Source: Thermoguttaceae bacterium
Lineage (GTDB): Bacteria; Planctomycetota; Planctomycetia; Pirellulales; Thermoguttaceae
Direction of reading: 5' to 3'
NCBI GenBank assembly: GCA_029975295.1
Contig: JARKPK010000006.1
Span: 1 to 64,000 of the forward strand
DNA: 64,000 bases
The notes beneath the pieces were generated by a model. It did no database searches. It worked only from the letters and a program-made list of their open reading frames with translations, and was not told the DNA's origin. Below are positions 31,607 to 37,183 of the stretch, in pieces. Each line of letters begins with the position of its first letter. Within the stretch, counting starts at the first letter, position 1. The position numbers and the translations under genes were made by a program.

Positions 31607-32572
31607 CTACCATTGCAACAGCATCGTGGCCCAACTCAACCCTCCGCCGAACCCGCTGAACAAGATGCGGCTTCCGCGAACGATTCGGCCGGCGCGAACC
31701 GCCTCGTCGAGCGCCAGCGGAATGCTGGCCGAGGCGGTGTTGCCATAGCGATCGAGGTTGTTGAACACCTTTTCCGGAGGCAATCGCAACTCGGCGGCGG
31801 CCGAATCGATGATCCGCAGGTTCGCTTGATGAAACACAACCAGATCGACGTCAGCGAGCGTCAGGGCCGAAGCGGCCAGCACTTGTTCGGTGGTTTCGCG
31901 GAGGGTGCGAATCGCCCATTTGAAGACCGCCCGGCCGTCCATCCGCAAAAACTGCTCGGCGGGCCGCGACGGATCAAACGGTTCGCGCGTTCCGCCCATG
32001 GGGCGATAGAGCAACGGGCCGCCCAAGCCGTCGGAGCCGGCGGCGTAGGCCAAGATGCCTTGCTGCGGCCCGCCGGGGCCGAGCAGCACCGCGCCGGCGG
32101 CGTCGCCGAACAGCGGATAGGTTTTCGGGTCGGCCGGATCGACAACGCGCGAGTTTACGTCGGCCCCAAGGGCCAACACGCGACGGCAGCAGCCCGTGGC
32201 GACGTATTGCATGCCGGTCAGCAGGGCCAAGGCGAAGCTGGTGCAGGCGGCCTGGATGTCGAAGGCCGGCGCGGTGACGCCCAGGGCGGCTTGAACCATG
32301 CTGGCCGTGGCCGGCATGAGTTGGTCGGGCGTGTAAGTTCCCAGCAGCAACAAATCGACTTCGTCGGGAGGGACATTCGCATCGGCCAGGCAGCGTTGGG
32401 CGGCCATCAGGGCCAGATCGCCGGTGGCCAAGCCGGGTGGCGCGTGTCGCCGTTGGGTGATGCCGGTCCGCCGCAGAATCCACTCGGCATCGCAGCCGAG
32501 TTTCGCCAAGTCTTCATTGGTGACGACCACCTCGGGCACGCTGCTGCCGACACCGAGAATCTGCACGCCCAT
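31607..32572 (-). CDS. fabH: Beta-ketoacyl-ACP synthase III
   Basis: A 321-residue thiolase-fold enzyme that condenses acetyl-CoA with malonyl-ACP to start type II fatty-acid synthesis. The catalytic triad is visible: Cys in IQAACTSF (near residue 110), His in VVFHQANLRII and Asn in YGNTASASIPL. The N-terminus MGVQILGVGSSVPE is typical, and the closing SGFGGGLSWATMLLQW is a strong family signature. The ATG at 32572 was chosen; ATGs at 32620 and 32635 are also in frame. It is divergent from the sigma-factor gene; the two promoters seem to overlap in the 32573-33075 gap. No other fab genes are near, so it may act in a specialised pathway, but the residues point to a standard KAS III. Confidence 0.94.
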   Translation of the reverse strand: MGVQILGVGSSVPEVVVTNEDLAKLGCDAEWILRRTGITQRRHAPPGLATGDLALMAAQRCLADANVPPDEVDLLLLGTYTPDQLMPATASMVQAALGVTAPAFDIQAACTSFALALLTGMQYVATGCCRRVLALGADVNSRVVDPADPKTYPLFGDAAGAVLLGPGGPQQGILAYAAGSDGLGGPLLYRPMGGTREPFDPSRPAEQFLRMDGRAVFKWAIRTLRETTEQVLAASALTLADVDLVVFHQANLRIIDSAAAELRLPPEKVFNNLDRYGNTASASIPLALDEAVRAGRIVRGSRILFSGFGGGLSWATMLLQW

Positions 32573-32804
32573 CAAACGACCGAAGCGAGAACGCGCAGAA
32601 AGTTGCGGCTCAGAGGGCATGGCAATAACTCGCAAGGGAGTGCAAAAGGATTCGGATCCCGTGGTCTTCCGCGGGTCTTCCGCGGTCGGGCGGCCCGGTC
32701 TGCGGTTTGGCGACCCGAGGTCGGTATAACGTAGGCCCCCGGGGGGAATTGCTCAAGCCCCAAACCGGCCCGGCGCGGGCGGGAGGGATGTTGCGATCTT
32801 GTTG

Positions 32805-32853
32805 ATTTTATCTAAATTGCCTACTTGACAACCAGTTGCGATTCGTTAGTTTG
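32805..32853. promoter_or_regulatory. Overlapping divergent promoter region of fabH and the sigma gene
   Basis: On the plus strand a perfect -35 box TTGACA (32825-32830) is followed by only weak -10 candidates (TAGTTT at 32847, 16-base spacer; TTGAAT at 32851, 20-base spacer). On the minus strand TTGTCA (32826-32831 read backwards) is followed 15 bases on by TAAAAT (32805-32810). The shared -35 suggests mutually exclusive polymerase binding for the two divergent genes. Confidence 0.35.
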
Positions 32854-32912
32854 AATGATCTGCACAATTTGCGGCATAGGAGTAAAAAAGGCAACACGGA
32901 GGGATCGCACCT

Positions 32913-33002
32913 GATGCTCAATTGCCCCAGCGTCGGCAACGGCGTTGGACTCACGGGGTGAGGCCTGTTTCCTAAATGGTTTTTAGGCAAACGCTTTGCG
33001 TT
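32913..33002 (+). promoter_or_regulatory. Structured leader of the sigma-factor gene (short ORF and two hairpins)
   Basis: A Shine-Dalgarno-like CGGAGGG is followed ten bases on by ATG at 32913 and a 15-codon frame ending in TGA at 32958-32960. Two hairpins follow: CCTAAA (32971-32976) with TTTAGG (32982-32987), and AACGC (32990-32994) with GCGTT (32998-33002). The sigma-factor start lies about 75 bases further on. This could be an attenuator-like or translation-controlled leader; it is inferred from sequence only. Confidence 0.4.
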
Positions 33003-33075
33003 GTTGTGCGATACGGCCCGTCGCCATTGGCATCCGAAGTGCTTCATTGGCTGAGCAGTTCGGGATGTTGCACGA

Positions 33076-34785
33076 ATGTCGGCCTTCGCACTTGTAGAGG
33101 TGGCTCCCTTGCCTAAGACTCTCCGTAAGCCTGCCGTGGTCACTGGTCAGCGTGCGCGAATCAACGGTTCGGCCCCGAACGCCAAGGGAAAGAACGGCGT
33201 CAAAGCCGTCGAGCGATTCGAGGAAGACGATCTGGTCGAAGCGCTCGAGGCCGACGACGAGTATTCAGGCGAAGTCGCGGCCGAGGTCGATCTCGACGAA
33301 GACCTGCTCGACGACGTCGAGCTGCTCCGCACCGGGGAAGACGACCAGATTGACGATCCGGTGCGGATCTATCTGATGCAGATGGGCGAGATCGCCCTGC
33401 TGACCCGCAAAGACGAGATTCGCGCCGCCCAGCGGATCGAGCGGGGGCGGCGGCGGTTTCGCAACGCCCTGTTGGCCGGCGACTACATCTTGCAGGGAGC
33501 GGCTTCGCTGCTCGAACAGATTCAGGCCGGCCAATTGCGACTCGACCGAACGATCGACGTTTCGGTGATCAACGTTCGCGAGAAGAAGCGGCTGCTGAAG
33601 ATTCTCGCGCCGAACTTGACGACCCTCAAGCGATTGCTGGCCGCCAACCGCCGTGATTATGCCGTGGCGATTCATCGGCGGCGGCCGAAGGCCGAGCGAC
33701 GGGCCGCCTGGCGGCGGATCGTTCTGCGGCGCGGCAAGGGCGTTCGTTTGGTCGAGGAGCTTTGCCTGCGGACCCAGCGATTGCAACCGATGCTGGAGAA
33801 GCTGCGCCAGATCGGCCGCCGCATGACCGAGATCCAGCGGCAGCTCGAAGGGGTCGCCGCTGGCGCCGAGGCGTCGGCCCAGCGAGCCGAGCTGCGGAAA
33901 GAACTGCACTATCTGATGCGGTTGACCCTGGAAAGCCCGGCCACGCTGCACCGCACGTTGGGGCGCATTCAAAAACACCTCGACGATTACGAATCGGCCA
34001 AGCGCTATCTTTCGGCGGGAAATTTGCGTCTGGTTGTCTCGATCGCCAAACGGTATCGCAATCGCGGGCTGAGCTTTTTGGATTTGATCCAGGAAGGCAA
34101 CACCGGGCTGATGCGGGCAGTCGACAAGTTCGAACACGCCCGAGGCTACAAGTTCTCCACCTACGCCACGTGGTGGATTCGCCAGGCGATTACGCGGGCG
34201 ATTGCCGACCAGAGTCGGACGATTCGCCTGCCGGTCCACATCATCGAAACGTTGGGCAAAGTCCGGGCGGTTTCGCGTCAATGGCTGCAAACGCACGGTT
34301 GCGAGCCGAGCGTGGAAGAAACCGCCACGGCCGCCGGGCTTCCAATTGACGAGGCCGCTTGCGTGCTTCGCATGACCCGGCAGCCGCTTTCGCTCGATCA
34401 ACCCGTGGGCGATCACGACGACACCTATTTCGGCGAATTCCTTGCCGACCACCGCGAAGAAGACCCGCTGCACGAGATGAACGCGCAATTGCTCAAGCAG
34501 CGCATTGCCGACGTGCTCGAAGGGCTCGACTACCGCGAACGCGAGATCATCCGCCTCCGCTACGGCTTGGCCGACGGCTACTCCTACACCTTGGAGGAAG
34601 TGGGCAAGATCTTCTCGGTTACGCGCGAACGCGTCCGGCAGATCGAGACGAAGGCGGTTCGCTCGCTGCAACATCCCTGCCGCTCGCGGCAACTTTCGAG
34701 CTTTGTGGATGGCTGGAAGGAAACCGCGCCGCCGGCGTTGCCGCCGATCGAGGGCGGGCCGGCCGCCTCGCTGGAAGCGGTTTGA
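33076..34785 (+). CDS. rpoD: RNA polymerase sigma factor, RpoD/SigA type
   Basis: A 569-residue sigma70. Region 1.2 lies near residue 93 ([22 protein letters not shown]). A long helical, basic insertion follows (about 120-305). Region 2 starts near 307 and includes [34 protein letters not shown] and the -10-recognition run [15 protein letters not shown]. Region 3 follows RTIRLPVHI. Region 4 near 485 has [15 protein letters not shown] and the helix-turn-helix [10 protein letters not shown]. Region 1.1 is not recognisable; instead there is an acidic stretch (residues 50-90). The C-terminal tail after region 4 is extended by about 30 residues. All core regions of a primary-type sigma are intact, so it is either the main sigma factor or a close paralog; planctomycetes carry several. 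The ATG at 33076 lacks a strong ribosome site; a GTG about ten codons downstream is an alternative. Confidence 0.9.
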
Positions 34786-36869: not shown

Positions 36870-36959
36870 CTGAACCGCGTTGGCGAACGAACCGACGAAG
36901 CCTAAGCCGGAGCGAGTTCAGGCCGTTTCCGTCCCGCGCGGAACATAAGCCGATTTCGC

Positions 36960-37140
36960 GTTGGTAGGTCTTCTGACTCCCGAGCTTCGTCGGCCGGCCT
37001 TCTCGCCGCCCCGGTTGGGGCGGCAATGGCAACGAAAGGGCGCGACGCACCGCTCGGTTACAGCGGCGGGGACCGTTCCGGGCTCTCACCGGATTCCCTG
37101 TTAGTCAGGCGGCCGAGAGGCGGCGCGCCTGCACACCAAC
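36960..37140 (-). ncRNA. Cobalamin (adenosylcobalamin-type) riboswitch
   Basis: Read on the minus strand from 37140, all landmarks of the cobalamin aptamer are in order. The closing stem P1 is GTTGGT (37135-37140) with ACCAAC (36960-36965). Next come GGGAATCCGGTGAGAGCCCGG and GGTCCCCGCCGCTGTAACCG, the GCCATTG and GAAGGCC core elements on either side of a GC stem (CCCC..GGGGCGGCGAGAAGG), and the B12 box AGTCAGAAGACCTACC. These match the Rfam cobalamin class very well. The RNA binds cobalamin and usually reduces expression of the gene downstream. The only gene downstream on this strand is the PEP-CTERM surface protein, about 400 bases away. Confidence 0.95.
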
Positions 37141-37154
37141 GCACGACGGTCTAG

Positions 37155-37183
37155 AATATATTTTCTCGGCTTAGCGCCGACAA
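37155..37183 (-). promoter_or_regulatory. Promoter of the cobalamin riboswitch transcript
   Basis: On the minus strand TTGTCG (37178-37183) is followed by a 17-base spacer and TATATT (37155-37160). The predicted start of transcription falls a few bases before the aptamer's P1 stem, which fits well. The region lies in the divergent gap to glnE. Confidence 0.65.

Follow-up and report, generated by a model that had tools for sequence, protein, structure and literature searches.

The sigma-70-family gene at 33109-34785 (forward strand) of the window, by which the whole stretch of 64,000 nucleotides is meant, encodes a second RpoD-like sigma factor and is likely (probability about 0.8) controlled by an RpoN promoter together with an enhancer-binding protein. 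The region in front of the gene had been singled out as a control feature, and this part of the original prediction was borne out: it is an evolved control region and not filler. The arrangement recurs in most of the families sampled of the order, which points to activation of one sigma factor by another in these bacteria.

Identity and start codon of the sigma gene

Sigma-70 regions 1.2, 2, 3 and 4 were detected in the encoded protein with Pfam, and region 1.1 was not found in it by the same search. The protein scored 329.2 against TIGR02393 (RpoD equivalog), below the cut-off of 354. Two further RpoD-like genes were located in the genome, one on contig C146 and one on contig C60. The C146 gene contains region 1.1, lies directly after dnaG and scored 355.7 against TIGR02393, above the cut-off. 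It is the primary sigma gene of the genome, and the window gene is therefore group-2-like: region 1.1 and an RpoD equivalog score, the marks of a primary (group 1) sigma, were not obtained for its product, and the marks of group 2, RpoD-like regions 1.2-4 and paralogy to the primary sigma, were. Its earlier description as primary-type holds as a resemblance only, since another gene has region 1.1 and follows dnaG. Among the sigma matches listed, those outside the order were only at the level of paralogs. The nearest named relatives of the window's genome are recorded as Pirellulales or Planctomycetota.

Orthologs were collected as 46 related loci from named contigs and 30 from a family search, giving 50 distinct loci after removal of repeats. 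Start codons were chosen manually from listed candidates for 48 of these; L060 and L080 were excluded for want of an assignable start, and at L011, L055, L072 and L074 the start was set without a listed Shine-Dalgarno sequence of 4 bases. The N-termini of the 48 orthologs align on a start equivalent to TTG 33109 (36 TTG, 9 GTG and 3 ATG). They share an EDxTLPKxxxKxxxRK-like pattern in which ED derives from the Shine-Dalgarno GAGGA and L (or V) is the TTG or GTG codon. The Shine-Dalgarno sequence in the window, AGAGGTGG at 33096-33103 (forward strand), has a conserved GAGGA-like counterpart at the equivalent place in the orthologs. The sigma gene thus most likely starts at TTG 33109 behind AGAGGTGG and not, as first read, at ATG 33076, which is without counterpart in the orthologs. 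This alignment-based assignment corrects the protein start by 11 codons. The weak ribosome site formerly ascribed to the gene is no longer a puzzle, because the start codon was wrong. The near-constant non-ATG start may itself limit translation.

Probable promoter box and upstream elements

A TTGGCAYCCGAAGTGCTTTT-like sequence was found upstream of the ortholog starts; its GG and GC are separated by exactly 10 nt, as in sigma-54 promoters. In the window this -24/-12 box is TTGGCATCCGAAGTGC at 33027-33042 (forward strand), and the GG-N10-GC shape is present in 46 of 48 orthologs. The pattern [TC]GGC[AG]N7TGC was matched within 250 nt upstream in 46/48 orthologs, against a mean of 1.75 (maximum 5) after dinucleotide shuffling and 4/48 on the opposite strand. 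The flanks of the box are directional, with T or C before TGG in 41/46 loci and T or A after GC in 38/46, and next to the GGCA/TGC core the outer bases lack the pairing expected of a palindrome. The window sequence at 33027-33043 has the sigma-54 promoter form (GG and GC 10 nt apart, flanking YTGGCAC / TGCW); its -12 half reads GTGC, and the consensus for this half is TTGC. Upstream of the sigma gene at L011 the box was absent, and L017 carries a variant with G before GG. The distance from box to start codon in the orthologs is 67 to 143, once 204. Transcription from the window box is predicted to start near 33054.

Across the window's whole genome the box pattern occurred 18 times, against 19 for the reversed control; with no enrichment, the case is carried by conservation at this gene and not by the pattern as such. 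No such box was found within 500 nt upstream of the aligned part of either of the two other RpoD-like genes. The CIRCE operator of HrcA, TTAGCACTC-N9-GAGTGCTAA, was considered for the box and rejected: GCAC and GTGC are 5 nt apart in the window box and 13 nt apart in CIRCE.

Three further elements were recognized upstream of the box, and their positions were counted from the first G of GG in its -24 part. E1 (32879-32896, forward strand, -150) is a dyad of the form YGWTG-N8-CAACR and scores 7/10 in the window, where only its right half is good. E2 (32912-32929, forward strand, TGATGCTCAATTGCCCCA) is the same dyad at about -117 to -118 and scores 8/10. E3 (32972-33000, forward strand, CTAAATGG...TTTGCG) is a split inverted repeat, CGTAA-N19-TTACG, at -57 and scores 7/10. 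At their places, E1 reached at least 8/10 in 34/46 orthologs (4.4% of 1803 random anchors), E2 at least 8/10 in 41/46 (5.2% of the same anchors) and E3 at least 7/10 in 40/46 (2.1%). E1 and E2, each of 18 bp, are spaced 31-35 bp apart in the 30 loci with both good, and exactly 33 bp in 14. In register, the three scores sum to 24.96/30 on average; other anchors average 15.96 (sd 1.67; largest 27). At 44/46 loci the sum beat 99% of the locus's own other anchors. The spacing of the elements is fixed relative to the box and not to the start codon; at L008 they stand 8-9 bp farther from the box. Because motifs and distances were derived from these 48 loci, which come from several families of the order, the scores of this first set are in part circular, and the motif counts are not independent since the orthologs are related by descent.

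A hold-out set was therefore assembled. It comprised 58 loci from other genomes of the order, hand-picked among the matches listed, of which 8 were left out as repeats of the first set and 50 were scored; it covered 18 further families and added one genome (L183) from the family to which the window belongs. The box was picked by its own matrix alone and the elements were scored afterwards. They fell in the best 1% of positions at 31 of the 50 loci and in the best 5% at 41; the 41 include L146, although its picked box is not real, the box of that genome lying outside the stretch searched (see L218). The box was not found at L160 (family f6), and several loci of families f8 and f16 have the box with poor E elements.

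E1 and E2 are thus in register at most loci, and a role as activator sites is putative. The window's own copy reads as degenerate: half of E1 is gone, the E1-E3 sum is 22/30 while values of up to 27 occur at some unrelated anchors of the set, and a strict pattern of E2 plus box had no match in the window's genome. The copy may therefore no longer be fully active in this organism.

A candidate sigma-70-type promoter lies farther upstream at 32825-32852 (forward strand; TTGACA, 16 nt, TAGTTT, the -10 matching 3 of 6). The pattern TTGACN-N15-18-TAnnnT was present between -330 and -160 from GG in 11/45 orthologs, at varying distance (shuffles: mean 0.37, maximum 3), and no comparable sigma-70 promoter was found in that range in the other 34. 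A scan for consensus promoters listed neither the forward promoter of the original prediction nor its divergent partner, and the candidate at 32825-32852 is absent from the list.

The window's genome contains one copy of rpoN and 16 matches to the Sigma54_activat domain, 12 of them strong and full-length and 4 weak. rpoN is present in 93/101 genomes of the family and in 39/40 chosen genomes of the order; a correlation of box with rpoN was discarded as a test, as a nearly universal gene offers no contrast. Dyads near the activator genes of the genome were few single matches and none was paired, so that no activator is named.

From this arrangement we infer binding by sigma-54, an activator, looping, a role for E3 and a physiological signal. 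The stretch 32825-33109 would be a promoter region with two entries. The distal one, P1, would serve the ordinary holoenzyme and yield a leader some 250 nt long. RNA polymerase carrying sigma-54 (RpoN) would bind the second, P2, at 33027-33042. The tandem dyads E1 and E2, which lie about 3 turns from each other on the same face of the helix and 100-130 bp upstream of P2, would be occupied by dimers of an enhancer-binding AAA+ activator, and this activator would open P2, with looping, by hydrolysing ATP. At E3, which lies between these dyads and P2, a bending protein or a second regulatory protein would be bound. The product would be the second RpoD-like (group 2) sigma, and RpoN and the activator would thereby switch a sigma-70-type regulon.

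Alternative readings of the leader

The region had been read as a structured leader in which a short frame and hairpins control translation of the sigma gene or act by attenuation. The parts of that description can be found in the window. A 15-codon frame (MLNCPSVGNGVGLTG, 32914-32961, forward strand) runs from ATG 32914-32916 to TGA 32959-32961, with GGAGGG at 32898-32903, 10 nt before it; the inverted repeats CCTAAA/TTTAGG (32971-32987) and AACGC/GCGTT (32990-33002) follow, and TTGACA is present upstream. The distal promoter, if used, would place frame and hairpins in the transcript. In addition, 33109-33116 (TTGCCTAA) and 32983-32990 (TTAGGCAA) are complementary throughout, so that the true start codon could pair with the right arm of the first hairpin. 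Against an RNA leader, neither frame nor hairpins proved to be conserved when they were looked for in relatives. Over 45 relatives the first hairpin forms 4.40 of 6 pairs (4.32 at random places) and the second 3.96 of 5 (3.77 at random places). A Shine-Dalgarno sequence before a start codon at the position of the short frame was seen in 2/46 loci, window included, and frames of all lengths occur at this place in the relatives. The combination typical of an upstream frame or attenuator, a conserved short frame with Shine-Dalgarno and conserved or compensated hairpins, was thus not found at these loci. Instead, DNA elements at fixed distance to the downstream box are conserved, and they track that box while its distance to the start codon varies. 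The ATG at 32914 is part of the TGATG half-site of E2, and the two hairpins overlap the two halves of E3. Symmetry of the dyads is often broken at position 3 (17/34 in E1, 17/41 in E2), as would be expected of protein-DNA contacts rather than of an RNA stem. The whole leader folds with a z of -1.49 against shuffles, and 15/200 shuffles fold at least as well. At the gathering threshold, Rfam returned no family in the leader. Its one match elsewhere is a cobalamin riboswitch at 36946-37155 (reverse strand; RF00174, 93.4 bits, E 6.6e-22). The transcription start is predicted downstream of the hairpins, near 33054. Of the two results named beforehand as speaking against the leader, the lack of conservation was thus obtained by computation, and the downstream start is predicted. 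Control of the sigma gene by such an RNA leader is consequently very unlikely, and the 15-codon frame is probably no gene. Transcripts from the distal promoter may nevertheless be subject to an effect at the RNA level. The suggested competition with the divergent fabH-type gene (31607-32620, reverse strand; beta-ketoacyl-ACP synthase III by Pfam/NCBIfam) through a common -35 box was abandoned, as this neighbour is not conserved. It lies outside the conserved arrangement and stands beside the sigma gene in 1/50 distinct loci, the window itself, in upstream sequence of 80 bases to 3 kb.

More serious is a cluster of operators for regulators other than sigma-54, in which GGCAY-N5-RTGC would be a small dyad and transcription would come from sigma-70 promoters. 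The GCA/TGC core of the box is itself an inverted repeat, its three positions pairing in 46, 46 and 43 of 46 loci, but the fourth inner pair fails in 12/46 and the bases flanking the core are directional and non-palindromic. Paired dyads of the E1/E2 kind do occur elsewhere without the box, and before flgM a TATCAT-like -10 follows a few bases on. The upstream sigma-70-type promoter in 11/45 orthologs fits the same reading, against which stand the 34/45 lacking a comparable one in the range searched. The GG-N10-GC spacing, exact in all 46 loci by the pattern used, and the coincidence of the conserved bases with those stressed by the sigma-54 consensus further argue for the sigma-54 promoter, and we consider the operator cluster improbable. 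An ordinary spacer, its similarities due to common descent of the region or to chance, might be entertained because the orthologs are related and their motif counts not independent. However, BLAST against 59 relatives gave only short DNA matches outside the window's own genome, over the leader just one of 30 bases in a sulfatase gene, and the four elements recur in register, where shuffles and shifted anchors fail to reproduce them. This reading was rejected on present data. The 30-base match (32908-32937, with 90% identity to a sulfatase-like gene of L004 on its reverse strand) is probably due to chance or codon bias.

Known systems and a possible wider regulon

The NtrC-controlled glnA gene has a sigma-54 promoter with tandem upstream activator sites. 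As there, the paired dyads are about three helical turns apart and roughly 100-150 bp upstream. To our knowledge, the half-site TGTTG/CAACA is not assignable to any known activator, and we know of no counterpart of E3 at classical sigma-54 promoters or of sigma-54 control of the cyanobacterial sigmas SigB-E. Pirellula enhancer-binding proteins were reportedly treated by Studholme and Dixon in 2004, and prior predictions may be found there.

In being RpoD-like, lacking region 1.1 and standing alongside a primary sigma, the window sigma resembles the group 2 sigmas SigB-E of cyanobacteria (PMC1087845). A cascade in which RpoN drives a sigma-70-family gene is described for RpoN-RpoS of Borrelia burgdorferi (PMC3037356, PMC2940757). 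Control of a sigma-70-family gene by RpoN would be the likeness between the two. The window's case belongs to another phylum; its target, about 560 aa long, is a group 2 sigma of RpoD-like type, E3 and the tandem dyads stand at fixed distances, and some lineages have a distal sigma-70 promoter. According to the sections covered of a 2025 survey of computed sigma-54 regulons (PMC12316311), a link to predicted sigma-54 promoters is frequent among genes of the sigma-70/32 type (COG0568), and csrA, chaperones and rpoN itself are predicted targets in Planctomycetia; a sigma gene of Planctomycetota, its enhancer sites and its start codon are not described in those sections. In a Rhodopirellula baltica microarray study (PMC2754498), rpoD (RB6780) was raised in the cold and a 567-aa sigma factor (RB12251) was repressed under several stresses. 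Searches of the open-licence literature found no description of the promoter, the enhancer-like sites or the TTG start of the sigma gene, and literature on planctomycete transcription starts, or on group 2 sigma factors and RpoN, yielded nothing on this gene. A cascade from sigma-54 to a sigma-70-family gene is already known in kind; here it would be a well-conserved case, whose mechanism we infer.

Paired dyads were found at 16 loci in 296 genomes, against 0 for the reversed pattern. Four are before the sigma gene and 12 are not; the latter (within L197-L212) carry tandem TGTTG-N8-CAACR dyads 12-18 bp apart, most without a properly spaced sigma-54 box. Genes close to these 12 are flgM twice (L199 and L203; Pfam E 1.1e-7 and 3.3e-9), Wzz-type genes twice (L208 and L209, one below the Pfam cut-off) and TPR genes twice. 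At both flgM loci TATCAT stands about 11 nt beyond the dyad pair, as it would if the pair acted at a sigma-70 promoter. Searched as one pattern, E2 plus box gave 26 places in 24 genomes, against 2 for its reversal: 9 directly before the sigma ortholog, 1 at the end of a contig, where E1 and E3 are both good, and 16 elsewhere, some of which will be chance. Among the 16, judged by eye only, L215 has a Wzz-like gene and L233 a sugar transferase; L226 and L230 have a coiled-coil protein, and L222 and L224 form one more pair. The motif W.RT..GWE, beside a hydrophobic stretch, was seen in small membrane proteins at two of the 16 (L216 and L225, again by eye) and at the paired dyads of L201 and L206, whose proteins matched no Pfam family.

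It is tempting, though on balance doubtful, to see in these loci a surface and life-style regulon of the order, governed by one enhancer-binding protein on TGTTGC-N6-GCAACA-type dyads partly at sigma-54 and partly at sigma-70 promoters. Its members would be flgM, genes for exopolysaccharide (Wzz-type, sugar transferase), the W.RT..GWE membrane proteins and the group 2 sigma gene, which would act as the hub linking it to a broad transcriptional programme, possibly the switch from swarmer to attached cell.

The exact bases to mutate are now named, and the likely transcription start has moved below the supposed leader structures. Sigma cascades beginning with RpoN are known in few lineages. Planctomycetes of this order have many sigma factors and little worked-out regulation, and an RpoN cascade kept across most of the sampled families would give a handle on how they reprogramme transcription.
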